From contig JAJZJF010000005.1 of the NCBI GenBank assembly GCA_021810245.1, positions 1-50,902 on the forward strand: 50,902 nt of DNA, read 5' to 3'. Positions 13,687 through 50,901 of this stretch are shown here, piece by piece. Each line of letters begins with the position of its first letter. The stretch's first letter is position 1. Below the pieces are notes generated by a model, which had not been told where the DNA came from, made no database searches, and saw only the letters and a program-made list of their open reading frames with translations. The stretch comes from a bacterium. Lineage in GTDB: Bacteria; Elusimicrobiota; Elusimicrobia; UBA1565; UBA9628. Position numbers and translations under genes: made by a program.

Positions 13687-16600
13687 TTACCTTTTCACCC
13701 ATTGCTGGGCCAGCTCAATCATCTCCCGCGCCAAAGAAGGAAGCTCTTCTTCGTCACAGCCCTTTGTCCGAAGCAGGCGCTTGATCTCGCGCCGCATTTC
13801 CTTTTGAACGTCTTCTCGTTCCGTCCACTCGGCGACGGCCAGATTCTCGACGATCCGGATGATGTCCTTGGCGAGAGCCGCGCGGTCTTCTTTATTTTTG
13901 AGAGGAATTTTTTTTGCATGGCCGTTAATGAGGCCAAAAAAAGCGAATTCTTTTCCGCCATCAAGTCCGAGTTCGCGAGCGGCCTCATCTTTTTGGGATT
14001 CGTCTTCCTTGATCTTCATGAGAGACAAGAGAAGTTCGGCCTCGTCTTTGCGCTCGCGTTTCTGATCCGCGATGACATCTTCAAGGCGTTTTTGAAGCGT
14101 CCCATAAAACGCCGGATCTTGGGGAGCCTTCGCGCTCAGAGTGTCGCGAATGGCGTATTCAAGATGCACGGCTTGGGCTTTCGCGCCGCCCTTATCTCGC
14201 ATCACGCTGGCAAAATCCGGCGCGCTGATCGTCAACGGCTCAAGCAAACGCTCGATTCCCTCGGCGGCGATATGAGCGTGAATCAGGGCCTCGACTTTCG
14301 CGCTCAAATCCTCGGTCTTAAGGCGTTCGTCGCGATAAAGATTTTTCGCCCCTTCTCGGACGGCGCCCAAGAATTTAAAATCTTTTAAGTAGGGCTCAAG
14401 GCGCAGGTCCGGCATGAGAAAATCCACGCTCTTGGCGAAGGCGCGATAAGCCTTGTCGAATTCTCCGCGAACAGTTTCGCTCTTTAAAGCTTCAAGGCAA
14501 TTCTGGAGTATCGTTTTGGGTTCGCCGTTAAGCGAAATGCCGGCGAAAAACCCCATTGATTCTTTGCGGTAATCGGCCAAGGCCTTGAGTTCTCTCTCCA
14601 CGTCATCGGCGCGGAAAAGCCCTTCCAGGTCTTCCGCGCTAAATTCTTCATGCGCCCTCGCCAACTCCTTGCCGATCCCCGCGTAATCCACAATCAGGCC
14701 AAAATTTTTCCTGGGATAGGTGCGGTTTGTCCGCGCCACCGCCTGAAGGAGGGTATGCTCTCTCAGGCGCTTGTCCAGATACATCGCCTGAAGAATCGGC
14801 GCGTCAAAGCCGGTCAAAAGCTTGTCGCAGACGATAAGAAAACTGAGTTCACTCTTCGGATCAAGGAAGCGCTCTTTAACGCGGTCTTCCGCCTCGTCGC
14901 TCAGGCGGTAATGATCCTGCCAATCCTGCGGGTCATCTCTTTCTATCGTCATGACGATTTCGGAGCGCTCGGGAGAAATGAGCCGGTCCAAAGCCTTTTT
15001 ATAGAGATCGGCGGTCTGCCGAGTCTCGGCCACGATCATCGCCTTAAATCCATTGGGCTTGATCGCCTGCTGATAGTGTTCGACAATGTCCAAGGCGACG
15101 CGATCGATTCTCCGCGGGGCCGCAGCCAAGACATCCGGAGTCGCATACTCGCGCTTGATATCCGCGATTTCCTTTTTCTTTTTATCCGGAAAAAGTCCCG
15201 CCAAAAGCGAATCCAAGGAAGCGCCGACCACTTGAAGATCCGCCAAGCGGCTCATGTATTTGATCGGAACGACGGCTTTATCCTTCTCGGCCTGCGCGAT
15301 GCCGTACTTGTGGAGGTATCTCTCGCCCTCAGGACTAAAGAGGCGGTAGGTGTTGCGATTTTTCTTATCAAGCGGCGTCCCGGTGAAGGCGAAGAAAGCC
15401 GCGTTCGGAAGGGCTTTGCGCAAGTTAAAAGCGAGATTCCCGTATTGAGTCCGGTGCGCTTCGTCCGTGAGCACGATGATATTGTCGGAGGTGGAAAGAG
15501 CCTTCTCGGGCATTGTTCGGAATTTCTGTATCGTCGTCATGATGGTCCGGCCGACTCCTTCTGAGAGCATCCGGTAGAGATCGCGAGAGCTCTCCGCGCG
15601 GATGGGGTTGGGAAAGCCGCAATCCCGAAAATTGTCGGAAATCTGCTTGTCGAGGTCCCGCCGATCGGTGACGATCAGAAAATAAGGGTTTTTAAGCCGC
15701 GCTTCCTCGCGGCGGAGTTTGAGCGCGGCAAAAAGCATGGTCAGAGACTTTCCCGAACCCTGCCAATGCCAGACGATGCCTTTCTTGTCTTTTTCTTCAA
15801 GAACCCGGCGGGAGATTTTTTGCACCGCCGTGAACTGCTGGTAACGGCAAATCTTCTTGACGATTTTATTTTCATCCGCTTCAAAAACGATGAAATCGCG
15901 GACAATGTCCAAGAGATTTTTTTTATTGAGCAAAGCCGCGATGAGAACGTCTTGGGCGGCCGGCGTTGCGGAAAGATCGCCTTTTTTAATCAACTTAAGA
16001 GCCAGCATTTCTTTGACGGAAGCGTGATCGGCCAGATTCGGAATCTTTTCATCCGGTTTTTCCCGCCATTCATGGAAATGATCAAGGTCCGCGCCGACAA
16101 CCCCGTATTTCGCCCCAAAGAGATTTACGCCGATGAGTATTTGATTGGAGCGGAAAAGAGCCGGAATTTCCCGCTGGTAGCGCAAGAGTTGTTCCACGGC
16201 GTCGACAATCCCCGTTTCTTTCGCGACCGGGCTTTTGCACTCGATGACGGCCAGGGGAATGCCGTTGACGAAAATGACGATATCCGGCCTGTCGGTCAGC
16301 TTTGGACCCTTGACCCAAAATTGATTGGCGACCAGAAAATCATTTTTCTCCGGGTTCTCAAAATCAATGTATCGAATCGTCAGCCCGCGCCGTCCCCTGC
16401 CCGTTTCCTGATCGATGCTGATGCCCGAGACAAGCGCCGCATGAAATAGTTTATTTTCATCCAAAAGCCCCGAGCCTTGAACGCTCGCGACTTTCCGAAG
16501 GGCCTTATCGATCGTAGACTCCGTCGCTTCGGGGTTTAGCTCCGCCAATTTCGCGCGCAAGCGGCCGCTCAGCACGACCTCGCGCCGGGAACCGCGTTCG

Positions 16601-16719: not shown

Positions 16720-18566
16720 GTTAGCACGCCTTGTTGTTTGAATTGTTCTTGAAGCTTTTCCAGACACTCCTTAGGAAATTCCTTTGAATTATTCTTTTGG
16801 AGAACAGTATTTAGATAATATCTGAGCGCACACACTGCGGCATCTTCCAGTTTTTTAGTCCATATATTAAGGGCGCGCCTTTCCCATCTTGGATATTTCC
16901 CATGATGAACACTGCCATTGTTTCGGATTTCCCAAAACTTCTTCGTATCTTTTTTAAATAGCTCTAACCTTTTTTTCTGAAATTGCGCGTATTCAGGAGT
17001 CCCCATAACGGGCGAATTTCTAGGAACATAAATTAGTTGATACAGGGGTAAATCTTTTTCAGGATTATTTGAATGCTGGAGAAACAAATCAACCAGCAAC
17101 CAGAGCCCCGTAAATCGGGACTGATTATCCTCCGCAGTTTTTGCGCCGCGATAAAGGCGCAATGCTTCAAGCACGCACGCCGCAAGTTGATTTTTTTTAG
17201 AGAGTTCAATAAGTTTCGCGGACCACTCCCCAACTTGAGCCAACGCCTCGTGAGCGAGAGCCTGAGAGGGATATCCCGCTCTTCTTCCATCGCTGGTCCA
17301 ATTCCAATACACCGTTTTTTCTTTCCTGCAAAAAGCAGTTTGCAATGCTTTGACGTCAGGATTTTCCCGTAAAGTTAAGGCTAAACCATTTAGGAACACA
17401 TTAAGTTTTTCATAGGCGACAGCCCTCGCACTTCTCGGCCCATGTGCCTGAATATCCGTGAAGAAAAAATATTGGGGAAACTCCTTATTGTCTGGAATTT
17501 TGGAGGGATCCGGATTTTTAGATTCAATTTTTAGAGAAAGTTCTGGAAGGTCAATAGGAGTATTGAATCTTGACCGCATCGGGATAACCACGGACCACAT
17601 CGCCGGGGTTGAGGCTAAAGCATTTCCAAACTCTTGTTCACATCGAGTTGGCCCACTGCCATCGCGGAAGAAACTTTCAATCCAATTCTCATGCTCCTCA
17701 AATGACTTGCCCGCAGTAGCTGGATTATTATCGAATAATGCGTTCATTGCGTTGCCAAGAGCATAAGACGCAAAGAACCGCGTGAGGCCCCCCACTTTTT
17801 TTTCGTCTTCGTCAAACTCTCGCAAACATTTTTTGGCAATTTCATTAAAATCAGACAAGCTTTCCACGGTTTTTTTGTCGCTATAGAATTTATTCCAAGC
17901 GTTTTGTGCGGCTTTAATATCCTCTTCGGATGGTAGCGCTCCATAGACTTCCGCGAAATTGCCCTTAATACCTCTGAAGAGATGAGCGATAGCTCTGATA
18001 CTAAGCAATACCGACTCATCCTTTAAGAAGCAAGTTCTCGCCAAGTAAAGAAGAAATTCAATCCAAATGCGCTCTTCTAAAGCATTGAACTGCGTGTTCC
18101 AAAACTCTTCCGGGTAAATCTCCTCTGGCAGGTTGTGCGGTGGAGTTTCCCCTCCGGAGAATAAGTCTTCCCGAACATCGCGCAATGGCCCAAAAAGCTG
18201 GGAATTGTCTATATTCTCATCAAGCACCGGCTCAACAGGGGACAAGCCCATCGGCATGGGAGTGGTATAGACGGCTTGGGTCAATCGGTATGCCACCTCC
18301 ATGGCCAATTCATTCAGGATATTATCAGTAGGAAGAGGAGTAAACGCGAGAATGGAGCGTCGATCCTCTGACAAAGTGAGCGCCATAAAAGCCTTTGCGT
18401 ACGCATCTGGATCGCCATAATATTTTGAATCCAATTTTTCTCCAAGAATGTTACGCGTCTGAACAAAAAACCTCAACCATAAGCGCTGCTGGAGCTTAAG
18501 CTGGAGCAATGATGATGAGCTGAAACTTCTTTTTGGCGTGGCGGGCATGATTAAACCATTGAGCAT
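16716..18566 (-). CDS. Unknown protein with HEPN-like C-terminal motif
   Basis: A 616-residue soluble protein of no recognised family in the middle of the restriction operon. Near the C-terminus, FWEIRNNGSVHHGKYPRW, followed by a helix LEDAAVCALRYYLNTVL, resembles the RNase motif of HEPN domains (R-x4-6-H; here R548 and H554, then HG). HEPN nucleases such as PrrC and RloC guard type I restriction systems, so an RNase effector role is a reasonable inference. The rest is predicted helical without obvious repeats. It overlaps the upstream gene by 16 bp if started at 18566; an ATG at 18548 follows that stop by 2 bp, and neither has a clear ribosome site. Its stop overlaps the hsdR GTG. Confidence 0.75.
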   Translation of the reverse strand: MLNGLIMPATPKRSFSSSSLLQLKLQQRLWLRFFVQTRNILGEKLDSKYYGDPDAYAKAFMALTLSEDRRSILAFTPLPTDNILNELAMEVAYRLTQAVYTTPMPMGLSPVEPVLDENIDNSQLFGPLRDVREDLFSGGETPPHNLPEEIYPEEFWNTQFNALEERIWIEFLLYLARTCFLKDESVLLSIRAIAHLFRGIKGNFAEVYGALPSEEDIKAAQNAWNKFYSDKKTVESLSDFNEIAKKCLREFDEDEKKVGGLTRFFASYALGNAMNALFDNNPATAGKSFEEHENWIESFFRDGSGPTRCEQEFGNALASTPAMWSVVIPMRSRFNTPIDLPELSLKIESKNPDPSKIPDNKEFPQYFFFTDIQAHGPRSARAVAYEKLNVFLNGLALTLRENPDVKALQTAFCRKEKTVYWNWTSDGRRAGYPSQALAHEALAQVGEWSAKLIELSKKNQLAACVLEALRLYRGAKTAEDNQSRFTGLWLLVDLFLQHSNNPEKDLPLYQLIYVPRNSPVMGTPEYAQFQKKRLELFKKDTKKFWEIRNNGSVHHGKYPRWERRALNIWTKKLEDAAVCALRYYLNTVLQKNNSKEFPKECLEKLQEQFKQQGVLT

Positions 18567-37245: not shown

Positions 37246-37359
37246 TCTCGAAAAAATCCATTTTCAGAGGGAAAAATGTTAAGATAAACTTCAACGGCGC
37301 GTTCGTCTAGCGGCCCAGGACGCTGCCCTCTCAAGGCAGAGACCACGGGTTCAAATCCC
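37246..37359. repeat. Left 114-bp direct repeat of island 2
   Basis: Identical to 50775-50888 in the same orientation. It covers about 50 bp upstream of tRNA-Glu and the tRNA up to the T-loop. Such a long repeat includes the tRNA upstream region, unlike a minimal att core. Confidence 0.9.
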
Positions 37360-37509: not shown

Positions 37510-38568
37510 TCATTGAAGTTCTTCAATCCCATAAAAAATTGATTCCTTTTCATCAAAACGTTGCGCCCGATCAAGATAGTGCTGAATTGAATCTGGCGAA
37601 GAATGCCCCAGTTCCGTTTGCAACTGTCGAAAATGCTTGACAACCATGGCCCGGTGAGTGGCGAATGTCCCTCGGAGATCGTAGGACACAGCGGGTTTAT
37701 TGACTCCCGATTTCAGCAGAGCCTTCCTAAAGACACGCGCCAAATAAACTCCGGCATATGGATTCCCAGTTTTTGGATTGCAAAAGAAAAGCCCGCTCAC
37801 GGGGTGGGGAGTAAGACTTTTAAGCAATTCTCCAAAGCGCGGACCAAGTGATTTTATTTTGAGGTAACGGCGTTCATTCTTCCGCGAAGTTTTTTTCCGT
37901 TTTGAATTTAAAAGCCAAACTTCGCCCTTCTCCCAATCAATATTTTCTTTTCCAAATTGGTTCGCTTCTCCAGGCCGCGCTCCTGTCAAAATTCGGAATT
38001 CAAACAAAAATCGCAGATGTTCGGGCAAGCAAATGAGAAGTTTTTCGATTTCTTCTTTTGTAAGCCAAACCTCGGCGCGATTTCCATCCGCAAGACCGAG
38101 TTTCTTAATATCAGCAAGGACGTTACGGCGGATCAGTCCTAAATCCGCCGCATATTGAAGAACCACCCGCAAACATTTGAATTCTTTGAGCACGGTCCCT
38201 TCCGAGCAGCCTGTTTGTTTAACCCCCAGTTTTCCAGAAAGACGCGCGTGCTTAAAGTTTTCCCAATCCTCACGCATAATTTCGTGAAGATTCTTTGGTC
38301 CAAAAAATCTGCATAGCGATTTTACTGTCCAGATTTCACGTTTGCATGAGGAATCTTTCAGTCGATGCTTCGCATTCATTGTAAGATAACGCTCCTGAGC
38401 GAATCTCTCAAAAGTCATCGGCTCTTGGCCTGCCCCTAAATTCGATTCCGCCTGTTGCCCGCCAATTAGGAATTCAGTCAAGGCCGTAATCGGCACAACA
38501 CGGCGAATATAGTTTCCGCCATGTCGGTATTCAAAGCGCACAACATCTCCTTCTTTGACGACGTTCAT
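37510..38568 (-). CDS. Tyrosine recombinase, left end of island 2
   Basis: A 352-residue phage-type integrase. Catalytic Arg in LTGARPGEANQ, a second box YDLRGTFATH, third box ELGHSSPDS and nucleophile Tyr in QHYLDRAQ. In the second box the usual H-x-L-R-H reads Y-D-L-R-G, a tolerated substitution of the first His by Tyr. The core-binding domain covers about 60-160. Its ATG overlaps the stop of the upstream excisionase-like gene by one base (TAATG), so three genes are coupled. The stop lies 150 bp from the left repeat. Confidence 0.92.
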   Translation of the reverse strand: MNVVKEGDVVRFEYRHGGNYIRRVVPITALTEFLIGGQQAESNLGAGQEPMTFERFAQERYLTMNAKHRLKDSSCKREIWTVKSLCRFFGPKNLHEIMREDWENFKHARLSGKLGVKQTGCSEGTVLKEFKCLRVVLQYAADLGLIRRNVLADIKKLGLADGNRAEVWLTKEEIEKLLICLPEHLRFLFEFRILTGARPGEANQFGKENIDWEKGEVWLLNSKRKKTSRKNERRYLKIKSLGPRFGELLKSLTPHPVSGLFFCNPKTGNPYAGVYLARVFRKALLKSGVNKPAVSYDLRGTFATHRAMVVKHFRQLQTELGHSSPDSIQHYLDRAQRFDEKESIFYGIEELQ

Positions 38569-38885
38569 TAAGTTTTTCCGTCCACTTGATTTTTTCTTGG
38601 ACGCCCCTTGTAGCTATATCGATGTTGGGAAATATATTTCTCAATTTCTCTTTCCTCAAAGAGACGACGATGTCCGAAATTCGTTGGGTGTAGCCCGAGC
38701 TCTTTCCAATTGTGCGCCAACCAAAAATAAGAATAACCCATTTTTTCCGCCGCCTCTTCCATAGTCAGTAGCCTTGATTTTTGAGAGGCTAATGATGGAA
38801 GCGAAGCTGGGAAAGGATAGGAACCGATGATCTTTCCAGGACACTGGCATGATGGGCAATGCAACGCGGGGGATGCAGCGCTCAC
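38568..38885 (-). CDS. Excisionase-like helix-turn-helix protein
   Basis: A 105-residue protein with a C-terminal HTH_17-type domain (LLTMEEAAEKMGYSYFWLAH, RRLFEEREIEKYI). Its N-terminal part (CPSCQCPGK) is of unknown function. It begins at GTG in the overlap GTGA with the previous gene and ends overlapping the integrase ATG. Such proteins direct excision or bind arm sites. An ATG at the MEEAAEKMGY position may be an alternative start. Confidence 0.75.
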   Translation of the reverse strand: MSAASPALHCPSCQCPGKIIGSYPFPASLPSLASQKSRLLTMEEAAEKMGYSYFWLAHNWKELGLHPTNFGHRRLFEEREIEKYISQHRYSYKGRPRKNQVDGKT

Positions 38886-39428: not shown

Positions 39429-40448
39429 TCAGTTTTCAGAACCCTTATCAAACTCGATTTGAGGAAGCTGACGCGCGGCTTCTTCCCCGAATCCACCGGT
39501 CAAACTTCGATGAACACCGGCTTCCGCGCTCCAAAGGCCGCGCAATGCCTCGATGATCCGCCGATGCTCGACATTGACCTTTTTCTGAATGTCATTAAGC
39601 CCCTTGACCGCCGCGCTCAAGAATTTCGCCTTTTCTCTCAGATCGAGTTCATAACTGTCCGTCAGGTAAGACTGAATACGCGCGACGACCTCGCTGCCCG
39701 CCCCGTGAACCGCCTTGGCTTCGGCGAGCTTGATGAGCTTCTCGGCTCCATCCAAAATCATGGCCAGAGTGAAGGCAAGATTGCTTCTGTCGATGAGCCA
39801 AACTCTGACTCCGGCACGACGGCACGGCGCGAGGCCGAAACCCGCCGCCCTAAGCTCCTCATTTGGAAAAGCCGAGGAATTCGCCGCGATATAGCCAAAT
39901 TGCGCCTTGTGCCGCAACATGTCGCCCCAGATTTTTTCCGGCCAGTCTCGATTCCAATCGGCGCTCCATTTATCATCCACAATCATCGCGCCAATGCGAG
40001 TCCCGTTCCGATGAACGTGAATAATAACGTCCGTCCCCTTTTTGCCCTGCCCTACTTCTTCGATCTCGCACAAATCGAGCGGCAGATTTTTCTTGAGATA
40101 TTCCCCCAATCCCTCCTCGGCGATGATGCCTTGAACCTGAGCCGATCCAAGACTCAGCTTCGATTCCATTTCCTGTGCGCGAGCCTGAGCTTCCGAAAGT
40201 TTTTTTCGGATTTCCGATATTTCCAGGTCTTTCTTGGCGAATCTCTCTTGAAAGCCACGAATGATTTCGGTTTTGGCCCTGCCCACCGCGATTTTTATTT
40301 TCTCTTCCGCCGCCTCCGCAGCCTTAACTTGTTCTTCCTTCATAAGGCGATTGGCCTCTGCCCGGCCTTCCTCAGCGACCAAGTCCGCGACTTGTTCCTT
40401 AAGGTTTATTCTCGCTCCGCACTTCGGACACTCGATTTTCAAGTTCAT
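39429..40448 (-). CDS. DUF2130 domain protein
   Basis: A 339-residue protein: an N-terminal CPKCGAR half zinc knuckle, a long charged coiled coil at about 20-115 (EEKIKIAVGRAKTEIIRGFQ, ISEIRKKLSEAQARAQEMES) and a DUF2130 domain related to PD-(D/E)XK nucleases (GKKGTDVIIHVHRNG, IGAMIVDDKWSADWNRDW). The usual E-x-K of the family (ESK) reads DDK here, so activity is uncertain. GGGGAGGAG before the ATG at 40448 fixes the start, not the in-frame ATG at 40502. A consensus promoter and palindromic operator lie upstream. Confidence 0.82.
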   Translation of the reverse strand: MNLKIECPKCGARINLKEQVADLVAEEGRAEANRLMKEEQVKAAEAAEEKIKIAVGRAKTEIIRGFQERFAKKDLEISEIRKKLSEAQARAQEMESKLSLGSAQVQGIIAEEGLGEYLKKNLPLDLCEIEEVGQGKKGTDVIIHVHRNGTRIGAMIVDDKWSADWNRDWPEKIWGDMLRHKAQFGYIAANSSAFPNEELRAAGFGLAPCRRAGVRVWLIDRSNLAFTLAMILDGAEKLIKLAEAKAVHGAGSEVVARIQSYLTDSYELDLREKAKFLSAAVKGLNDIQKKVNVEHRRIIEALRGLWSAEAGVHRSLTGGFGEEAARQLPQIEFDKGSEN

Positions 40449-40545
40449 GACATTCTCCTCCCCGTTTTTTCTTTTGAGTTTTTCGTAGCGTCTTTCATGC
40501 ACTAATTTTTTGTAGAATAATCAATAATGTAATGTGCTTACTTAT

Positions 40546-40873: not shown

Positions 40874-41660
40874 AGCTTTCTTATCTTTAAACCCCGGCAG
40901 CGCGGGCGAATTCTTCTATCGTTTGAAAACGTTCCTTGGGGTCGGGCTTTAAACATCGGACAATAATTTCATTGAGACGAACATTGCAGTCGGGTAGAAT
41001 CTCGGTAAGAGGTTTAAAGACGGAGCGCTCCTTTTGCGCCAAAAAGTCCGGGCCGCGGAAGGGGATATCCCCGGTCAAGGCTTCGTAAATGGTCGCCCCC
41101 AAAGAGTAGATGTCCGAGCGCGCATCCCATTTCCCCAAGTGCTGCTCCGGCGACATATAAGCGAAAGTCCCGGCGGTTTCAACTCGGCTCACTCGGCTCA
41201 TCGCGTCCAGCGCCTGACCTGCGATGCCAAAATCCATCACTTTCGCTCCCTCCGCCTTCGTCACCATGATATTGGAGGGCTTTAAATCTCGATGAATCAC
41301 CTTTTTTGAGTGGGCAAAAGCCAGGGCTCTACAAACCCCGCCGAGCACAGACCCCATTTCAGCCGCCGCTAGTTTCCCGTGTTTGGCGATCATTTCCGCC
41401 AAGTTTTGGCCCTCGACATATTCAAAGACCAAATAGACTTCGTTGGATTCCTCTATGATTTCATGGATATCCACAATCGAAGGATGGCGAAGTTGGGCCA
41501 CAATTTTGGCTTCATCCAAAAAGCGAGCTTTCTCCTTGGGATTCATCGCCACCTCGGGACGCATCTTTTTTATCGCGACTCTGCGCCCCAATGAATGATC
41601 TTTTGCCTCATAGACCAATCCCATGCCTCCTTGACCGATTTGGCGCAAAAGCTCGTATTT
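40874..41660. repeat. 787-bp duplicated kinase segment, copy 1
   Basis: Nearly identical to 43003-43789 in the same orientation; I saw three base differences. It covers the kinase catalytic domain and about 13 bp past the stop codon, and ends abruptly just before the domain's start. Confidence 0.95.
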
Positions 41661-42944
41661 CCCGGCGATCAGCGCGGTGGATTGTCCCTCGCGGGTTTGG
41701 CCCGATGAGGCAACGGTCTCCGCGGTGGAGGGCGGTTTTGTCAATGACGATGGCGCGGTTGATGCGGGAGCGGCGGACGTGGCGGCACTTTGGGGCCGAT
41801 TCTTGCGCTTTAAAACAAATCTCCAAGTCACGAGGAGCAAGAATAAAGCGATTACAACCCCGATTTCTTCCATGGTCTTAATCCGCGCGGCTTCTTGATT
41901 GGCTTGTGCTTCGGCGGCCTTTTGGACTTGCGCCGCATGAGCCGCCGCTGCCGCTCGCGCGGCCTTATTAGAAATCCACACGCGCACATGCTTCGTCCCA
42001 TCCCCAGAGACGATTCGCTTGCCGTCTGGGGAATAACTTACGGAGCGGACATAACTCCCCACATCCTTGGACTTCCACAGCTCTTCACCGCTCATTGCGT
42101 CCCACACGCGCACATGGTTCGTATCATCTCCAGAGACGATTCGCTTGCCGTCCGGGGAATAAGTTACGGAGAAGACAGCGCCCACATCCTTGGACTTCCA
42201 CAACTCTTTCCCGCTCACTGCGTCCCACACGCGCACATGCTGCGTCTCATCCCCAGAAACGATTCGTTTGCCGTCGGGGGAATAACTTACGGAGTTGACA
42301 AAACTCCCCACATCCTTGGACTTCCACTGCTCTTCACCGCTCGCTGCGTCCCACACGCGCACATGGCCGCTATTACCATAATAACCATCCCCGGAGACGA
42401 TTCGCTTGCCGTCAGGGGAATAACTTACGGACCAGACATAACTCCCCACATCCTTGGACTTCCACTGCTCTTCACCGCTCGCTGCGTCCCACACACGCAC
42501 ATGGTCTGTCCAATCCCCAGAGACGATTCGCTTGCCGTCTGGGGAATAACTTACGGAGACGACAGTATTTCCCACATTCTTGGACTCCCACTGCTCTTCA
42601 CCGCTCGCTGCGTCCCACACGCGCACATGGCCGCCATTATCTCCAGAGACGATTCGCTTGCCGTCTGGGGAATAACTTACGGAGACGACAGTATTTCCCA
42701 CATTCTTGGACTCCCACTGCTCTTCACCGCTCGCTGCGTCCCACACGCGCACATGGCCGCCATTATCCCCAGAGACGATTCGCTTGCCGTCTGGGGAATA
42801 ACTTACGGAGACGACAAAATTCCCCACATTCGACGTCCACAGCTCTGTAAACCCTTGCGCGGAAGCGGGCCTTAGAGACGCAAATATAAGACAAAAAAGA
42901 ATAAAGTGAAAACAGATTCTCTTGAACGCCAGTTTGTTGAGCAT
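40887..42944 (-). CDS. Receptor Ser/Thr kinase with seven WD40 repeats
   Basis: A 685-residue membrane kinase. A signal peptide (FILFCLIFASLRPASA) leads to seven near-identical WD40 repeats of about 42 residues (consensus SVSYSPDGKRIVSGD..HVRVWDAASGEE, about 30-330), which close one seven-bladed propeller outside the cytoplasm. A membrane helix (EIGVVIALFLLLVTWRFVL, about 360-380), a Ser/Thr-rich linker and a PknB-type kinase (about 423-685) follow: GQGGMG, VAIKKM, VIHRDLKPSNIMV, VMDFGIAG, YMSPEQ. All catalytic residues are present. The kinase is identical to that of the gene at 43016, and the two share a 787-bp DNA repeat. It probably senses a periplasmic cue and phosphorylates a FHA-bearing partner. 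Confidence 0.92.
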   Translation of the reverse strand: MLNKLAFKRICFHFILFCLIFASLRPASAQGFTELWTSNVGNFVVSVSYSPDGKRIVSGDNGGHVRVWDAASGEEQWESKNVGNTVVSVSYSPDGKRIVSGDNGGHVRVWDAASGEEQWESKNVGNTVVSVSYSPDGKRIVSGDWTDHVRVWDAASGEEQWKSKDVGSYVWSVSYSPDGKRIVSGDGYYGNSGHVRVWDAASGEEQWKSKDVGSFVNSVSYSPDGKRIVSGDETQHVRVWDAVSGKELWKSKDVGAVFSVTYSPDGKRIVSGDDTNHVRVWDAMSGEELWKSKDVGSYVRSVSYSPDGKRIVSGDGTKHVRVWISNKAARAAAAAHAAQVQKAAEAQANQEAARIKTMEEIGVVIALFLLLVTWRFVLKRKNRPQSAATSAAPASTAPSSLTKPPSTAETVASSGQTREGQSTALIAGKYELLRQIGQGGMGLVYEAKDHSLGRRVAIKKMRPEVAMNPKEKARFLDEAKIVAQLRHPSIVDIHEIIEESNEVYLVFEYVEGQNLAEMIAKHGKLAAAEMGSVLGGVCRALAFAHSKKVIHRDLKPSNIMVTKAEGAKVMDFGIAGQALDAMSRVSRVETAGTFAYMSPEQHLGKWDARSDIYSLGATIYEALTGDIPFRGPDFLAQKERSVFKPLTEILPDCNVRLNEIIVRCLKPDPKERFQTIEEFARAAGV
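42000..42836. repeat. Tandem WD40-coding repeats, about 126 bp each
   Basis: Six to seven units of about 126 bp encode the WD40 blades with high DNA identity; units around 42541-42666 and 42667-42792 differ by a single base. Such identity implies recent expansion or homogenisation. Confidence 0.85.
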
Positions 42945-43002
42945 TAGGACAATTTTATAACATGTGGAAACACTCCTAAAATTTTCTTACAAGATAATTT
43001 TC

Positions 43003-43789
43003 AGCTTTCTTATCTTTAAACCCCGGCGGCGCGGGCGAATTCTTCTATCGTTTGAAAACGTTCCTTGGGATCGGGCTTTAAACATCGGACAATAATTTCA
43101 TTGAGACGAACATTGCAGTCGGGTAGAATCTCGGTAAGAGGTTTAAAGACGGAGCGCTCCTTTTGCGCCAAAAAGTCCGGGCCGCGGAAGGGGATATCCC
43201 CGGTCAAGGCTTCGTAAATGGTCGCCCCCAAAGAGTAGATGTCCGAGCGCGCATCCCATTTCCCCAAGTGCTGCTCCGGCGACATATAAGCGAAAGTCCC
43301 GGCGGTTTCAACTCGGCTCACTCGGCTCATCGCGTCCAGCGCCTGACCTGCGATGCCAAAATCCATCACTTTCGCTCCCTCCGCCTTCGTCACCATGATA
43401 TTGGAGGGCTTTAAATCTCGATGAATCACCTTTTTTGAGTGGGCAAAAGCCAGGGCTCTACAAACCCCGCCGAGCACAGACCCCATTTCAGCCGCCGCTA
43501 GTTTCCCGTGTTTGGCGATCATTTCCGCCAAGTTTTGGCCCTCGACATATTCAAAGACCAAATAGACTTCGTTGGATTCCTCTATGATTTCATGGATATC
43601 CACAATCGAAGGATGGCGAAGTTGGGCCACAATTTTGGCTTCATCCAAAAAGCGAGCTTTCTCCTTGGGATTCATCGCCACCTCGGGACGCATCTTTTTT
43701 ATCGCGACTCTGCGCCCCAATGAATGATCTTTTGCCTCATAGACCAATCCCATGCCTCCTTGGCCGATTTGGCGCAAAAGCTCGTATTT
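43003..43789. repeat. 787-bp duplicated kinase segment, copy 2
   Basis: Copy of 40874-41660 at offset 2129, same orientation. Confidence 0.95.
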
Positions 43790-44320
43790 GCCGGCTATGA
43801 GCGTCTTGTTTTCGGACACGGTAGGTTTTTGTATTTCCGACACGATACAGGTTTGCTTGGGCTCTGGGTTTGGATTAGAGGGGACTTGAAGGACGGATGC
43901 GCCACCCTTAGTTGGAAGCCATTTCCTAGCCTCGTCTCGATTGATTTCTTCTGCGCAGCGATAAGCTCTATACATACCCAAAATCCAGAAGATGAGTATG
44001 ACTAGCAAGAATAGTGGTACGAAAAAGATGTATATGGCCGACACCAATAATTTTAGACTGGAGTTGGGTAGTATGGCTAACAGGAATGCTAGCCCTAAGA
44101 TGGGTATGGCTAGCAGGAATGGTAACATCAGGAACTTAAGGCCCATAAAAATCCCATCTCTGGCTTTTCCTAAATAAATATGCCCCAGTCCGGGCCAGAG
44201 TGAAGATAAGAGTGCCGCAATGAGAGGTATTTTTAAGTTTTTCTCATAGCCACATTTTAGACACACCGTCGCTCTATCTGAGGCTTCTGTTTTGCATTCG
44301 GGACATTGAAGCATCGGCAT
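43016..44320 (-). CDS. Membrane Ser/Thr kinase with zinc-ribbon and TM2-like domain
   Basis: A 434-residue protein. A zinc ribbon (CPECKTEASDRATVCLKCGY, 5-24) precedes several membrane segments at about 31-125, including a TM2-type block SSLWPGLGHIYLGKARDG, then a short linker and a PknB-type kinase (about 172-434) identical to that of the gene at 40887. Unlike that gene it has no extracellular domain, so the sensor half is replaced. AGGAAGG lies before the ATG. Its own promoter is only weakly visible (TTGAGG-17 nt-TAACAT). It is upstream of the WD40 kinase on the same strand. Confidence 0.92.
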   Translation of the reverse strand: MPMLQCPECKTEASDRATVCLKCGYEKNLKIPLIAALLSSLWPGLGHIYLGKARDGIFMGLKFLMLPFLLAIPILGLAFLLAILPNSSLKLLVSAIYIFFVPLFLLVILIFWILGMYRAYRCAEEINRDEARKWLPTKGGASVLQVPSNPNPEPKQTCIVSEIQKPTVSENKTLIAGKYELLRQIGQGGMGLVYEAKDHSLGRRVAIKKMRPEVAMNPKEKARFLDEAKIVAQLRHPSIVDIHEIIEESNEVYLVFEYVEGQNLAEMIAKHGKLAAAEMGSVLGGVCRALAFAHSKKVIHRDLKPSNIMVTKAEGAKVMDFGIAGQALDAMSRVSRVETAGTFAYMSPEQHLGKWDARSDIYSLGATIYEALTGDIPFRGPDFLAQKERSVFKPLTEILPDCNVRLNEIIVRCLKPDPKERFQTIEEFARAAGV

Positions 44321-44445
44321 AAAACACCTTCCTATTTCTCCTCATTGGTGCGTCTTTTTCCCAACTTGATGTTACCAAGCCGGGGAAATCGCCTCAACTT
44401 TTTTCAACTATTATCGTGACATGCTCCCTTGACGCGCTCATGATT

Positions 44446-45168
44446 TTATTGGCAGAGAATCTCAATATTACCATCATTTATAAGTTCATAGACGCCGATT
44501 TGCAATTTTTGGATGAGTTTTTTGAGCTTGGGACGGAGATTGATTTTATTTACTTCCTTTGCTTCCTTCAGCGCAAGGCAACCTTCTGGTTTCCCCTGAA
44601 GAAGAACCGCTTTATAAATCTCGGACTGGGGATTTGTGTTAAAGTCGCATCGAAATTTTTCAGGGTCAAGTTGCAGATAATAGGTCTCAATCTCAAGGAC
44701 AGTTTTTAGAAGCGTATCACTCGTGTTGTTCAACTTGAATTCAATCAGGTAAAAGCTATTCTTTGATTCATTGTAGGTCACCAAATCGATTTTCCCGGCT
44801 CTGTCTCCACGTATATTTTTTAGAGGAACCTGATATTCTATCACCTTGCCTAGCGTGCCTAGTTTGGCCTTAGTATTGAACAGGCATCCTGCATACTGCT
44901 CTTCCTTCCTATTACTTTTGGTTTTCTGGAACTTTGCCCCCAGGTGAGGATTATAAGTCTCTTCCCGCGAGATGGTTCCTATTCCTTTCAGCCACCCGGA
45001 GTTCTTTTTCTCCAACAGCAGTCCTGCAATAATCTCGGAAGAGAGTTCGTTAGAATCATTCGTTCTACCGCTCCAATTGACACAGTCTGCCTTATAGATG
45101 GTTTCAGGTTTTTTGATGCTCTCCGCTATCTTGTTCTGCACCTGCTTACAATTATATTTTTTAGGCAT
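44446..45168 (-). CDS. PD-(D/E)XK-like nuclease-fold protein, unknown
   Basis: A 240-residue protein with a candidate PD-(D/E)XK core: GKIDLVTYNESKNSFYLIEF and K on the following strand (D-x15-E-x-K pattern). An N-terminal helical segment (KYNCKQVQNKIAESIKK) precedes it, and the C-terminal part is charged. GGGAGG lies before the ATG. It lies between the TM2 kinase gene (gap 125 bp) and the LPP20-like gene on the same strand. Whether it is a defence nuclease or a binding protein is open. Confidence 0.6.
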   Translation of the reverse strand: MPKKYNCKQVQNKIAESIKKPETIYKADCVNWSGRTNDSNELSSEIIAGLLLEKKNSGWLKGIGTISREETYNPHLGAKFQKTKSNRKEEQYAGCLFNTKAKLGTLGKVIEYQVPLKNIRGDRAGKIDLVTYNESKNSFYLIEFKLNNTSDTLLKTVLEIETYYLQLDPEKFRCDFNTNPQSEIYKAVLLQGKPEGCLALKEAKEVNKINLRPKLKKLIQKLQIGVYELINDGNIEILCQ

Positions 45169-45220
45169 ATTTCCTCCCTTATTTTATTTGTTTTTACGGT
45201 GATGAAGGGGAGATTCATTT

Positions 45221-46798
45221 TCATTTAACCCCTCTCAGTTTCTCCGTGAGAAATTTGGATATCCGAAACAAGACGCGGCTTGTGGATTTTGTTTTGGCTT
45301 GATGGGACCTCATGGCGCTGCTCTTGGCAGCGGGGCCATCGGAATCAAAAACGGGTTCGCCGTTGGGAAGGGCGTAGAGAGAAAGCGCGCTTTGCGCCCA
45401 TCCTTGGTAGAGGTCATAGTCGCCGACTTTTTGGCTGCTATCCTGGATGGAGACCAGGAGCAGATAGTCCGCATGAAGATCCACGGCTTTTTGAATCCTG
45501 GACTTTAAATTCATCGCGCGGCCCGGTATTTCCATTCCGCTAAACCCCTGGGAAACCAAGACTCTTTTAATGGAGGTGGCCAGTTTCTCTCGCAGGTTCT
45601 CATCTGGAGCCAACGCCGCAAAGGCGACGGAACGCGCCTTAATGAGGTCCACCGTGCATTGGGGGGCCGAGAAAAAACGGGGAATAGAGCCTGTTTTAAA
45701 AAGGGCGGCTCCGTCCACCTCGACTTGAAGAGTGGCGCGAGATTGGGAAGGGTCTATGCGCACGATGGGAATCTGGGCCAAGCCGCGGGAGTCCGTCATG
45801 AGCGCATGTCTCGCGAGTGTCCCGCGTCCTTCTGAAAAATCAGACTTAAGAGAAAGACCCTTGATGGGAACGTGAATTCCGCCGCGAGCGTCTTTGTAGG
45901 AAGCCTCAATTTGCGGGCTCTGATTAATCTTCCCCTCAGCGCTATAGGTGATACGGTTGGGATGAGCGGCAAGCGAAATATTCTCAAGAATGCCGCTGAT
46001 TTTTCCGGCCAGAAAACTTTGCATTTCCTGTTTGCGTTTGTCCATGCGCATTTCGACGGGGCTTTCTCCCCAATAACCGGAAAGAGTGTTTTGAGCCAAG
46101 ATCAAGTCCCGCAAACCGCTCATCACGCGCTTAGATGCCAGTTCTTTTTCGCCCTCTTCCGCGAGGCCTTCAACCCGCTCCTTTTTGAGGGAGAGCTGCT
46201 TCTCCGCTATCTCGTGGTATTTCTTTTGAGGAACGGAAAGGAGAACATCCACAAATCCCTTCTGAGGATAATCCAGAAATTTTTTGATCGCAAGATAAAG
46301 ACTGTTTTCCGGATCGGCCAAAACAAGATGCGTTCTCAAATCTATAGCGTCTTCAATTTGCTCTTTCTCCACATGAGAGGAACCGGAAGCGTTATAGCTG
46401 TATCGACTTTGAGATTGAGAGGTGATGGTCACTTGGATGCGCTTAGCCAGCCGCTCAAGGGCCAAGCTATAGGCTTTGTCATAAGCCTCCTCGGCATGCC
46501 CTTTGTGGATTTCCGCCGAGGCGTCTGCGGCATAGTAGTCCGGATCATGCTCCAGCTTCTCAATCAAGGCTCCAATGTCGGGAGGATTCTGAACGGGAGC
46601 CGCGAGAGGTTTGACGCCGGGTTTAGCTGTAGTTTGAGAGGGGGAAAAATTGGAAAGATGCTCTTGGGCTTGTTGCGCCTGATTTTCAAGAGAGGATTCG
46701 GAATCGGAAGGAGATGTATTTTGGGATTTCAGATGAGGAGTTATCATCAAACACAAGGCCAAGGCGCAAAAAACAGCGAGACGTTTTTTATTGGTCAT
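45221..46798 (-). CDS. LPP20/LpoB-like exported protein
   Basis: A 525-residue exported protein. The start at 46798 (GGGAG before ATG) is chosen because the longer frame overlaps the FHA gene and lacks a start context; its ATG overlaps that gene's TGA (ATGA). A signal peptide (LAVFCALALCLMITP) is followed by a Gln-rich segment, then an LPP20-like domain (AYDKAYSLALERLAKRIQVT, QIEDAIDLRTHLVLADPENS). The C-terminal part (KLATSIKRVLVSQGFSGMEI, ADYLLLVSI) resembles LpoB/CsgG-type envelope proteins. It may sit in the periplasm or outer membrane as a partner of the FHA protein. Confidence 0.65.
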   Translation of the reverse strand: MTNKKRLAVFCALALCLMITPHLKSQNTSPSDSESSLENQAQQAQEHLSNFSPSQTTAKPGVKPLAAPVQNPPDIGALIEKLEHDPDYYAADASAEIHKGHAEEAYDKAYSLALERLAKRIQVTITSQSQSRYSYNASGSSHVEKEQIEDAIDLRTHLVLADPENSLYLAIKKFLDYPQKGFVDVLLSVPQKKYHEIAEKQLSLKKERVEGLAEEGEKELASKRVMSGLRDLILAQNTLSGYWGESPVEMRMDKRKQEMQSFLAGKISGILENISLAAHPNRITYSAEGKINQSPQIEASYKDARGGIHVPIKGLSLKSDFSEGRGTLARHALMTDSRGLAQIPIVRIDPSQSRATLQVEVDGAALFKTGSIPRFFSAPQCTVDLIKARSVAFAALAPDENLREKLATSIKRVLVSQGFSGMEIPGRAMNLKSRIQKAVDLHADYLLLVSIQDSSQKVGDYDLYQGWAQSALSLYALPNGEPVFDSDGPAAKSSAMRSHQAKTKSTSRVLFRISKFLTEKLRGVK

Positions 46799-48609
46799 GC
46801 TTTCTCCCTGGCCCGATAAGAGAGACCTTTGTATTCCAAGGTGGCGCCGGGATAAAGAACTTGGCACTTCCCGGGAGTGATAAAAAGGAGAGCGGCCTCT
46901 GAAACAACGAAGCGGCAACGACCGCCATTGCGGGGCATAAGTCCAAGATCGCTTGCATCGCAAGGGATTTCCTGAATCGGGCAAAAAACGTCGTGCTTTT
47001 TGCTGGAAAGGACGAGGCCCAGCAGCTGCCGCGCCGTTTGCGGCTGTTTGACCGTCAAATTAACCGGCGCGGAATCTGAGGCCAATCGAGTTTCTAAAGT
47101 CGGCGCGGCGCCTGAAAATAAACCAATCTGATACTCAACGGCGCCACCGAGATTGAGGATGTCGCCATCTTCCAGGCGCGAACGCGTCAGCGCTTCTCCA
47201 CGGTGTTTGGTTCCATTGGTGCTGTCCAAATCCTCGGCAACTACAGAATTTCCCATCAGACTGATTTTGAGGTGCTTGCGGCTGATCCGCTCGTCATCAA
47301 TCTCGATATCGGTCTCAATGCGGCCTATTGTCAAAACATCGGCTTTAATAATGATAATTTTCTTCCCCACTTTCTCTGGGATAAGAAAGAGACGATGGGT
47401 TTTGCGTGAGTCCTCCAGATCGCGCCTGAGCGCTCCGGCGCGGGAATTGACGGGATTGAGGCTGAGAGCTTTCTCGATATTATCCTGCGCCGCGCGGACA
47501 TCGTTTTCGGATAGATTTCTATGCGCCGCTTCAATCAAATCATTGGAACGCGCAATTTTATCTTGCGCCAAGCGGGCAACTTCTCCTTCAAGCCGATTAT
47601 AGATGGCTTTGAGGCCTGGATGGTAGGGAAGAAGCGTTTTTAAACGATCGCCATTGTCGATATCTTCAGGGATAAGCGTTTTCCCTGATGACTGCGACTC
47701 GCGCAGCGCCAGATCAAGTTTTTTATATTCAACCTGAGCTTGTTGAAATTTCTGGGGATCTCCACCGGTCCAATCCATCAGCCTTTGGCGAAAGGCATAG
47801 AGATCGTTGTTGTCTGGCAACACCCACAGGCAGGAATCAACGAGGCGCAAGGCGGCCATGACATCCCCATTTCCCCAATAGCGCTCAAGGCTTTCAAAGG
47901 CCGATGGAAGTCCCTGAACCATCCGGCGGCGTTTCAACGTGAAATAAAATTCCTGTCCAATGAGAAAAATAAAACAGCAGGCGAAAAGGGTGGAAGAGGT
48001 TTTAAACCCTGAACGGACATTGCGGCGTGTCTGAAGAAAACGGCTTGAGAGCCCCGGCGGAGTCAATGCGCTGGCGGCTGAAATAAGAATTTTCCCACGA
48101 GCGTCTAAAATGCGAATTTCGGCCTCGTAATCGAGGAGCATTCCAGGCACTGGGCGTAAACGGGCTTGAGACACATAGACGCTTTTTAATTTCCCCGCTT
48201 CGACGATCCGGAGAACCGCCTCCGGATCCACCAATCCCTTTTTCATAAGGACATTGACTTGTGAGACTAATTGGGACATGTCCGCCGCCGGCGCGAGCAA
48301 TCGCCAACCGGGATAGCCGATGAGCGTGGCATTGAGGTCGTCTTTAAGCGCCTGCAGATTGGGGATGTCATCGGAATTTCTAGCGGAGATATTGATCTCG
48401 TCAATGGAGGCCAGCCCTCCGTGCAATTTTAGATGAGCCGCTTGTTTTTGAATGCTGCGCGAAAGCGCCTGAAGGGCTGGTCCCATGGGAATAAAGGGCG
48501 GCGGCGGAACCGATAGATTTTGCCAGGCCCAGGCGGATAAAATAAGAAAAACCGCCATTGCCGACATAAGAATTTTACGGCGCTTGCCGTAAATATCGGG
48601 CAAAGACAT
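46795..48609 (-). CDS. Membrane protein with TPR-like region and FHA domain
   Basis: A 604-residue protein with an N-terminal membrane helix (SAMAVFLILSAWAW), an exported or soluble domain at about 40-195, a second hydrophobic segment at about 205-220 (TLFACCFIFLIGQEFYF), a helical TPR-like region and a FHA domain at about 410-500: VLTIGRIETDIEIDDERISR, KHLKISL, LDSTNGTKHRG carry the phosphothreonine-binding Arg, Ser and Asn pattern. It is translationally coupled to the LPP20-like gene. A FHA reader next to two Ser/Thr kinases is the classic pairing, so this protein is a probable substrate or sensor of their phosphorylation. Confidence 0.82.
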   Translation of the reverse strand: MSLPDIYGKRRKILMSAMAVFLILSAWAWQNLSVPPPPFIPMGPALQALSRSIQKQAAHLKLHGGLASIDEINISARNSDDIPNLQALKDDLNATLIGYPGWRLLAPAADMSQLVSQVNVLMKKGLVDPEAVLRIVEAGKLKSVYVSQARLRPVPGMLLDYEAEIRILDARGKILISAASALTPPGLSSRFLQTRRNVRSGFKTSSTLFACCFIFLIGQEFYFTLKRRRMVQGLPSAFESLERYWGNGDVMAALRLVDSCLWVLPDNNDLYAFRQRLMDWTGGDPQKFQQAQVEYKKLDLALRESQSSGKTLIPEDIDNGDRLKTLLPYHPGLKAIYNRLEGEVARLAQDKIARSNDLIEAAHRNLSENDVRAAQDNIEKALSLNPVNSRAGALRRDLEDSRKTHRLFLIPEKVGKKIIIIKADVLTIGRIETDIEIDDERISRKHLKISLMGNSVVAEDLDSTNGTKHRGEALTRSRLEDGDILNLGGAVEYQIGLFSGAAPTLETRLASDSAPVNLTVKQPQTARQLLGLVLSSKKHDVFCPIQEIPCDASDLGLMPRNGGRCRFVVSEAALLFITPGKCQVLYPGATLEYKGLSYRAREKA

Positions 48610-48670: not shown

Positions 48671-48698
48671 AGTGTAACAGGAATTGTTGATTTGTCAA
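48671..48698 (-). promoter_or_regulatory. Promoter of the FHA/LPP20 operon
   Basis: TTGACA (48693-48698), 16-nt spacer, TACACT (48671-48676) on the minus strand, about 55 nt of leader before the ATG at 48609, which has GGGAGGG upstream. Confidence 0.6.
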
Positions 48699-49133: not shown

Positions 49134-50696
49134 TTACGTCGCGGACAGCATTCGCTTGGAATTAAGCCGCAGTCTGCCATTTTTCTTTTCAATAATGAAC
49201 CGAGTCAAATCCTCGGCTCTGAATCGACGTCCCTTGCCGATTTCAACGGAAGGCAATATTCCTTGGGCGGCCAGCCGGGAAATCATGCTAGGGTCTTTGT
49301 ATCCGAGAATAGCCGCGGCTTCTTCAGCCGTGAAAAGAGCGGCGAGTGCAGTCACTTCGTTTTTGAGAAACACGGTGCGCGAACCGATTTTAAAGGGATG
49401 AAGATGCTCAGCCTTAATCCACCCCACGTAAAGCTGCGTCCGATGAATTCTCAACTTGGCGCAGGTCTCGGCCACGCTGTAGAATAAATCTTTCGCCGAA
49501 TCCGAATTCAAATTCGTCTCAAGCGCGGCGTCTAATCCCTCCAGTCTCGCCTCGTCCAACTCAAGACCGCTCAACTTTAAGGCATGACGGAAAAGTTCCA
49601 AACGGATCGCTTTGTCCGGCCATGCTTGAGCGGGAAGCGTTTTCGCGGGGCCGCCGCTTCCAAAGCGGCGCCCATAATCTTCAAGCAAATCTTTTTCCTT
49701 GAAGTTGTAGTACGCCAGAGTCTCCTCGACATTCATATGCCGCGCCAGTTTTTGAACTCTCTTGGCATCCAGGCCGGATTCAACCCATTCGCTAATCCTT
49801 GTGTGGCGCAGATAATGAGTGCGCCCGACATATTCATGAGGCAAGCCCGCTTCTTGCGCCATCGGAATATAGACTTGATCCCGGTAGACCGCGCTGCTGA
49901 GAGCTTTGCCTTTTTTATTGCAGAAGATGACTCTGCCGACTACTTTTTTTGATTTTGGCGTCAAAACCTCCTCCGCCTCTATATTTTTTTGCCCCAGATA
50001 TTTATCGCGCGCGTCCAAATACCGTTTAAGATATCCGCAACCCAAAGGAGTCAAATAGGCCGTATCCTCAAACCCTGCGGCACGGTCTTTTGATTCACGG
50101 ATTACGATGGGAACAATCCCGCCGGGGTTCTGCCTAGACCAGAGAATGTCCTTTTCCGATAGGCGCGCGACTTCGGAAGCGCGCAAAGCCGCGTCATACT
50201 GAACCGCGATCATCGCCTTATCTCGAAGGTATAAGAATCTTCCCTCATCATTGAGACTAGACAATCGTTTTTCATCTATACCTAAAAGTCCATCGCGCTC
50301 ATCCGAACTTAAACGACGATATTCTTCATCTTTGATCGGCGCGGGAGCTTTGACGCCCCTCGCGATGTTTTCTGGAATCAAGCCCTGGCTATGCGCGGCT
50401 TTGAACAGACCTTTTAGATTCATCAGCAAAACTCGAATAGTCCGAGTTTTTATTTCACCCGCAGCTTGCCGCAGATCCAGGCTTTTCCGCAGATCCTGGA
50501 AGTCCTCGACATTAAAATCGCTGAGACTTTTCAGGACTCGCCCGGGGTGGGCTTTAACGATCTCGCGACAAAGCGCCGCGAAAGCGTTGCGATAGCCGTC
50601 TGCCGTCCCTGGACTTAAGGGTTCGCCGCTCCGCTGGTGGCGATAGTCAGAAATCACTTGCTCAAGCTGGGTTGAAAGGCTCTTTTGCGTTTTCAT
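49134..50696 (-). CDS. Tyrosine recombinase fused to two excisionase-like domains
   Basis: A 520-residue protein; GGAGG before the ATG at 50696 fixes the start. Residues 1-355 form a tyrosine recombinase: first Arg in YDAALRASEVARL, HYLRHTRIS, LARHMNVEE and nucleophile Tyr in TLAYYNFKE. After a linker, residues about 420-460 form a MerR/excisionase-like HTH_17 domain (AKLRIHRTQLYVGWIKAEHL, PFKIGSRTVFLKNEVTAL), and residues about 465-510 a second one (FTAEEAAAILGYKDPSMISR, GRRFRAEDLTRFII). Excisionase is usually a separate gene; here the same chain could bind arm sites and recombine. Confidence 0.9.
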   Translation of the reverse strand: MKTQKSLSTQLEQVISDYRHQRSGEPLSPGTADGYRNAFAALCREIVKAHPGRVLKSLSDFNVEDFQDLRKSLDLRQAAGEIKTRTIRVLLMNLKGLFKAAHSQGLIPENIARGVKAPAPIKDEEYRRLSSDERDGLLGIDEKRLSSLNDEGRFLYLRDKAMIAVQYDAALRASEVARLSEKDILWSRQNPGGIVPIVIRESKDRAAGFEDTAYLTPLGCGYLKRYLDARDKYLGQKNIEAEEVLTPKSKKVVGRVIFCNKKGKALSSAVYRDQVYIPMAQEAGLPHEYVGRTHYLRHTRISEWVESGLDAKRVQKLARHMNVEETLAYYNFKEKDLLEDYGRRFGSGGPAKTLPAQAWPDKAIRLELFRHALKLSGLELDEARLEGLDAALETNLNSDSAKDLFYSVAETCAKLRIHRTQLYVGWIKAEHLHPFKIGSRTVFLKNEVTALAALFTAEEAAAILGYKDPSMISRLAAQGILPSVEIGKGRRFRAEDLTRFIIEKKNGRLRLNSKRMLSAT

Positions 50697-50716
50697 AGAG
50701 CCTCCGGAGACAAAAA

Positions 50717-50735
50717 CGCACACAAAAGCGCACAC
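50717..50735. repeat. Paired CGCACAC repeat, right arm of island 2
   Basis: CGCACAC occurs at 50717-50723 and 50729-50735, 12 bp apart, directly upstream of the integrase ribosome site and 40 bp inside the right 114-bp repeat. Matches the left pair in spacing and orientation. Confidence 0.55.
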
Positions 50736-50774: not shown

Positions 50775-50888
50775 TCTCGAAAAAATCCATTTTCAGAGGG
50801 AAAAATGTTAAGATAAACTTCAACGGCGCGTTCGTCTAGCGGCCCAGGACGCTGCCCTCTCAAGGCAGAGACCACGGGTTCAAATCCC
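50775..50888. repeat. Right 114-bp direct repeat of island 2
   Basis: Identical to 37246-37359. It contains the tRNA-Glu upstream region and tRNA nucleotides up to the T-loop. The intact tRNA 3' end follows. Confidence 0.9.
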
Positions 50889-50901
50889 GTACGCGCCACC
50901 A
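50825..50901 (+). tRNA. tRNA-Glu (anticodon CTC)
   Basis: A 77-nt cloverleaf with encoded CCA: acceptor GGCGCGT/ACGCGCC, anticodon loop CTCTCAA giving CTC and reading GAG, T-arm ACGGG/CCCGT around TTCAAAT. The left copy at 37296 shares all but the 3' end and is broken. The window ends one base after the CCA. Confidence 0.97.

Follow-up and report, generated by a model that had tools for sequence, protein, structure and literature searches.

The window analysed here is the whole of contig C140 (50,902 nucleotides), part of a 2.03-Mb, 152-contig genome of the phylum Elusimicrobiota (G000), and our subject is a group of kinase, FHA and envelope-protein genes in a 13.6-kb island that it contains. 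A first-pass annotation had grouped five of these genes as an envelope phospho-signalling set, and the coordinates of all five were confirmed, each on the minus strand: an FHA protein (46795..48609), an 'LPP20-like' protein (45221..46798), a PD-(D/E)XK nuclease-like protein (44446..45168), a membrane kinase (43016..44320) and a WD40 receptor kinase, or WD40-kinase (40887..42944). Read along the minus strand they stand in this order, followed by a gene at 39429-40502, an excisionase-like gene and integrase 1.

The FHA protein is predicted to be bitopic, with a transmembrane (TM) segment near its N-terminus, a periplasmic domain, a second TM segment at residues ~207-225, helical repeats, the FHA domain (E=7e-14) and a C-terminal beta domain. 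In the window protein the N-terminal segment falls short of the hydropathy threshold, yet it forms a helix (residues 5-32) in the structural model, and in the relatives it is scored as TM. The residues for phospho-threonine (pThr) binding (G-R, S-R-x-H and N-G) are present as R430, S443-R444-H446 and N465-G466, and the idea of a reader that spans the membrane is supported. The model matches the FHA domains of EmbR and GarA and, weakly, GNA1162 and CsgG, the latter two probably via the periplasmic part. The FHA and LPP20-like genes share 4 bp (ATGA), and the start of the LPP20-like gene is accordingly at 46798 rather than 46984. The AF2 model of the LPP20-like protein (pLDDT 78.6) has FlgT as its best match in the PDB (3w1e, E=9e-8, probability 1.00), with low whole-chain TM-scores (0.21/0.30) because the domains are differently placed, and further fold matches to the LPHT ring, PelC and CsgG. 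At the sequence level, a weak match to LPP20 (PDB 5ok8, E=0.008) covers the N-terminal domain only, the signal region does not end in a lipobox cysteine, and a Pfam search of the protein returned no FlgT match. Thus, the label 'LPP20-like' fits the N-terminal domain but not the protein as a whole, whose fold is FlgT/CsgG-like, and we rejected its identification as a literal LPP20 lipoprotein. From these models, an inner-membrane FHA reader may contact a periplasmic ring-type protein.

The two kinases carry different heads on the same catalytic domain, as had been proposed. The WD40-kinase has a signal peptide, seven WD40 matches, a TM segment at residues 355-373 and a cytosolic Ser/Thr kinase domain, and the membrane kinase has a zinc ribbon and two TM segments. 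Their catalytic domains are identical at the protein level across 261 amino acids and the stop codon, with six synonymous nucleotide differences, and GxGxxG, VAIK, HRD and DFG motifs are intact in both. The duplicated segment is 801 bp long (copy 1, 40874..41674; copy 2, 43003..43803; both on the minus strand; 99.25% DNA identity) and extends 13 bp beyond both kinase stops. Therefore, a recent duplication or gene conversion maintains one engine behind two heads.

The WD40 array (41976..42846, minus strand) is built of 126-bp units encoding near-identical blades with six hypervariable columns. The first two blades are identical, and over blades 1-6 the mean all-pair identity is 82%, being 92% outside the six columns and 19% within them. 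Three of the variable columns follow the end of the SGD strand and three immediately precede the SVS strand, a register in which they would match the known hot spots on the top surface of WD40 propellers. The adenine pattern of a diversity-generating retroelement (DGR) is absent from the WD40 variation of this kinase. No DGR was identified in the window genome, where template and variable repeats were not sought in detail; the genome does encode two reverse transcriptases (C96:19342-19884 and C94:10354-10779).

We searched 341 Elusimicrobiota genomes, many of which are fragmented metagenome-assembled genomes (MAGs), with a profile built from the full-length FHA sequence rather than from the FHA domain alone. 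The full-length protein was found in six of them (G000, G023, G095, G230, G236 and G242), a FlgT-like gene adjoins the FHA gene in all six, and a Ser/Thr kinase gene lies beside the pair in four (G000, G023, G095 and G230). Three further FlgT-like loci have an adjoining kinase gene (G018, G181 and G022), with no FHA gene seen on those contigs. Given 5-36 kinases per genome, the probability that at least seven of nine loci would have an adjacent kinase by chance is at most about 4e-7, even at the highest of these kinase densities, by a simple Poisson estimate. Hence the FHA, FlgT-like and kinase genes recur together in other genomes, and the neighbourhood survey that the first-pass annotation had proposed came out in its favour rather than against it.

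The kinases at these loci carry different heads on a related catalytic domain: zinc ribbon plus PQQ propeller plus ankyrin in G018, BatD in G022, zinc ribbon plus a long N-terminal region in G023, and a short zinc-ribbon form in G095, G181 and G230; in G181 a free WD40 protein adjoins the kinase. In the kinase tree, the window kinases cluster with the G018 cluster kinase (0.99), followed by G015 kinases located outside such clusters, and the three core kinases of the window genome are far from the island kinases; on this tree an origin from the host's own kinases was rejected. The G023 cluster kinase joins those of G230 and G181 (0.99), which belong to another family; this suggests horizontal movement. 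The PADLOC profiles PD-T4-6, MADS6 and PglW score high with the island kinases; however, the host core kinases score about equal or higher, and because of this we dropped similarity to defence kinases of the PD-T4-6 or Stk2 type as evidence. As a separate observation, the gene upstream of the G095 kinase (L043:6289-9027) encodes a protein of 912 aa in which DnaJ-like CxxCxGxG motifs are numerous and which has no Pfam match.

One of the clusters contains targets of a DGR. In G023, three genes for zinc-ribbon/TM proteins with an FGE domain lie within the kinase-FHA-FlgT cluster (L042), and their 3' ends form variable repeats (L042:9898-10025, 14449-14576 and 17733-17860) of a 128-bp template that adjoins a reverse transcriptase (E=2e-18) on a different contig (L153:2878-4026). 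The repeats differ from the template at 13, 18 and 15 positions, and 13/13, 17/18 and 15/15 of these (45/46 overall) fall on template adenines, which is the signature of a DGR; therefore, the G023 cluster has neighbours that undergo diversification or did so recently. The G023 genome has more copies resembling the variable repeats elsewhere.

The island is bounded by an exact 114-bp repeat (attL, 37246..37359; attR, 50775..50888; both on the plus strand) in a tRNA-Glu gene, the intact copy of which, with anticodon CTC (50825..50901, plus strand), is the integration target. The repeat comprises the first 64 nt of the tRNA and its upstream region, so that the att duplication takes in the 5' portion of the tRNA gene instead of the usual 3' end. 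Two integrases lie at opposite ends of the island, namely, tyrosine integrase 1 (37510..38568, minus strand; Phage_integrase E=5e-14, with a PHROG integrase match) and XerC-like integrase 2 (49134..50735, minus strand), a recombinase with a fused C-terminal excisionase/HTH_17 region. The excisionase-like HTH protein (38568..38885, minus strand) matches a PHROG excisionase (E=3e-4) and, weakly, the NCBIfam excise model. An empty site is seen in the congener G004, where a malonyl-transferase-like gene, tRNA-Glu and a PBP1A gene directly adjoin; contig C130 of the window genome starts within PBP1A, as the right flank of the island should look. In another congener (G002), the same tRNA-Glu site (L162:2770-5324, contig C162) holds a 118-aa remnant of integrase 2 (84% identical) together with the phage-defence pair AbiEi (E=2e-74) and AbiEii (E=1e-78). 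This makes the site a hot spot of integration that is open to defence cargo as well, and the earlier description of the genes as mobile cargo is borne out by the empty site and the AbiE cargo. In the G018 cluster, an integrase lies ~230 bp from a tRNA-Val gene. Carriage by phages or plasmids was rejected, since no relatives were found: the FHA protein had none in 50,697 phage records or in IMG/VR viral contigs, the FlgT-like profile had no match in IMG/VR, and a search of plasmids for both proteins was negative.

Two other genes of the island appear to be cargo. The PD-(D/E)XK-like protein has a D...EFK motif and no Pfam match. It is present where the first-pass annotation placed it but does not belong to the conserved core: a single relative with the same motif was found in 97 genomes, in the congener G003, where an AAA ATPase gene and an ankyrin-caspase gene flank it in one apparent operon (L155:4103-8406, contig C29). 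AAA ATPase and ankyrin-caspase genes are typical of conflict clusters. The PD-(D/E)XK-like gene is an accessory piece of cargo. The zinc-ribbon/coiled-coil protein at 39429..40502 (minus strand) belongs to no family, has distant relatives in few genomes, and is probably separate cargo outside the module. A perfect 12/12 promoter match (TTGACA-17-TATAAT) lies upstream of its gene at 40579-40551. A promoter-like site of 10/12 with an extended -10 (48671..48698, minus strand), suggestive only, lies 62 bp upstream of the FHA gene.

The reading that we favour, in which our confidence is evenly balanced, is that these genes form a mobile transenvelope phospho-signalling conflict module with diversified sensors and an output at the envelope, serving phage defence or kin discrimination. 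The computations show which genes make up the set, that these are associated and mobile, that the kinases share a catalytic domain, that the sensors are diversified, and what topology and fold the proteins have; from this we infer ligand sensing, a phospho-relay, ring assembly and a protective outcome as follows. The canonical FHA residues, the intact kinase motifs, the swapped heads and the AAA/caspase surroundings of the PD-(D/E)XK relative likewise speak for the reading. The heads (the WD40 propeller and zinc-ribbon/TM heads here; ankyrin, PQQ propeller, BatD and DGR-mutated FGE proteins elsewhere) would recognise a ligand that is foreign or non-self and would then activate the shared Ser/Thr kinase. 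The cytosolic FHA domain of the bitopic inner-membrane protein would then read the phospho-threonine signal, and the periplasmic domain of this protein, which is weakly CsgG-like, would engage the FlgT/CsgG-like periplasmic protein. The latter may act as, or cap, an envelope ring, such that the envelope would be altered or breached and the invader blocked or the cell sacrificed. DGR-diversified targets have been proposed by Dore et al. as antigen sensors of conflict systems (PMC10907252), and both DGR-diversified sensors and positively selected WD repeats have been tied to conflict or non-self recognition (PMC10907252, PMC7159879, PMC4986451). More tentatively, and with somewhat less than even confidence, we propose that this is an undescribed immune or allorecognition system in which sensors diversified by a retroelement or by recombination act through a Ser/Thr kinase and an FHA membrane protein on an effector resembling an outer-membrane ring, and which islands at tRNA sites would spread between Elusimicrobiota families.

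Several observations weigh against the conflict module. No toxic effector domain was recognised in the conserved core, and the lack of relatives in the phage, IMG/VR and plasmid searches counts on the same side. The FHA/FlgT-like pairs of G236 and G242 lack a kinase within the region read, and G236 and G230 show erosion of the pThr-binding residues. Weak fold matches are what connects the CsgG-like region of the FHA protein to its FlgT-like partner, and a FlgT-like homologue in G061 lies among flagellar genes (L046:8930-10411, contig C2), so that the family can be structural. The 801-bp repeat is a possible mis-assembly point of a MAG. Finally, the 82% blade identity is slightly below the published cut-off for high-internal-conservation WD40 arrays, for which Dyrka et al. 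ask a repeat identity of 85% or more across 100 or more amino acids.

The main rival, which we regard as rather unlikely, is control of envelope stress or of a surface structure: the kinases would sense the periplasmic state and, via the FHA and FlgT/CsgG-like proteins, control a ring in the outer membrane or a complex for secretion or motility, and the mobility would be incidental. The FlgT/PelC/CsgG fold, the flagellar setting of the G061 homologue, the bitopic, FHA/YscD-like topology and the extra small LPP20-like lipoproteins in G095, G181, G236 and G242 argue for this explanation. However, the distribution is patchy, integration takes place at a tRNA site where AbiE also inserts, DGR targeting and head swapping are seen, and the window cluster has no flagellar or secretion genes. 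That the genes are unrelated cargo gathered by chance in one island is the least probable of the explanations; for the core genes the survey contradicts it, with FHA/FlgT-like pairing in 6/6 genomes and kinases recurring across classes, although the PD-(D/E)XK and 39429-40502 genes, which are not conserved members, would agree with it.

Discrimination of kin or non-self between related cells, akin to heterokaryon incompatibility in fungi, in place of phage defence is a further, less likely alternative, which sequence cannot separate from phage defence. In fungal HET-type NLRs, near-identical 42-aa WD repeats vary at few surface positions under concerted evolution and positive selection (PMC4986451), which the blade pattern of the window kinase resembles; a periplasmic WD40 head fits contact sensing, and kin discrimination has been put forward as another possible role of DGR conflict systems (PMC10907252). 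On the other hand, no adhesin or delivery partner was recognised. Unlike in the HET-type NLRs, the repeats here belong to a receptor kinase outside the cytosol rather than a NACHT protein, with one allele only. The island also resembles KKP, the kinase-kinase-phosphatase module of Pf prophages that acts in phage defence (PMC11341870), in having two adjacent Ser/Thr kinases that are alike in their catalytic domains but not in their other domains, together with an FHA reader on a mobile element. A KKP-like addiction module that stabilises the island, with phage resistance as a by-product, is nevertheless very improbable, and KKP membership was rejected: no PP2C phosphatase, the antidote, is found among the island proteins, no cold-shock domain was found, and the FHA domain is not fused to the kinases as in KKP but is part of a separate bitopic membrane protein, with a FlgT/CsgG-like partner and exported, swappable sensor heads.

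The conflict module also shares features with other known systems. The DGR and ternary conflict systems of multicellular bacteria (PMC10907252, PMC7159879) likewise have diversified FGE/CLec or propeller sensors, swapped domains and, occasionally, kinase and FHA parts, but the module has no vWA, MoxR or STAND/NACHT core (no vWA and MoxR components occur in the window cluster), and its predicted output passes via the FHA protein to a protein that resembles an envelope ring; neither paper mentions Elusimicrobia, and LPP20 and CsgG are also absent from PMC7159879. The FlgT, PelC and CsgG outer-membrane ring proteins share the predicted fold, whereas the LPP20-like protein has no Pfam match or lipobox, has no flagellar, Pel or curli genes in its cluster, and is paired with FHA and kinase genes. 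A kinase-PP2C-FHA triad of the window genome (contig C37, L048) also combines a Ser/Thr kinase with an FHA protein, but its kinase is a CHASE2-like core kinase of a distant clade, and it has a phosphatase, a soluble FHA protein and no FlgT-like protein. The WD40 kinase PkwA (PDB 5yzv) similarly joins WD40 repeats to a bacterial Ser/Thr kinase, but in the island kinase the WD40 part is N-terminal and exported, with the TM segment between it and the kinase. In each comparison with KKP, the DGR/ternary conflict systems, the HET-type WD repeats and FlgT, at least one tested defining feature is absent or not clearly present, and a limited literature search found no paper combining these parts.

Predicted conflict systems with hypervariable sensors are mostly NTPase-based (STAND, MoxR) and cytosolic. 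In the module described here, such diversified sensors go together with a kinase, a transmembrane FHA reader and an envelope protein of FlgT/CsgG-like fold, which makes it a testable candidate for a phospho-relay that would carry recognition to the envelope. The tRNA-Glu site is a defined hot spot at which AbiE, an established defence pair, and the module alternate. The same gene set, recurring across the phylum with swapped or mutated sensors, has the look of a system at the cell envelope, so far undescribed, that would tell self from non-self or act against invaders.

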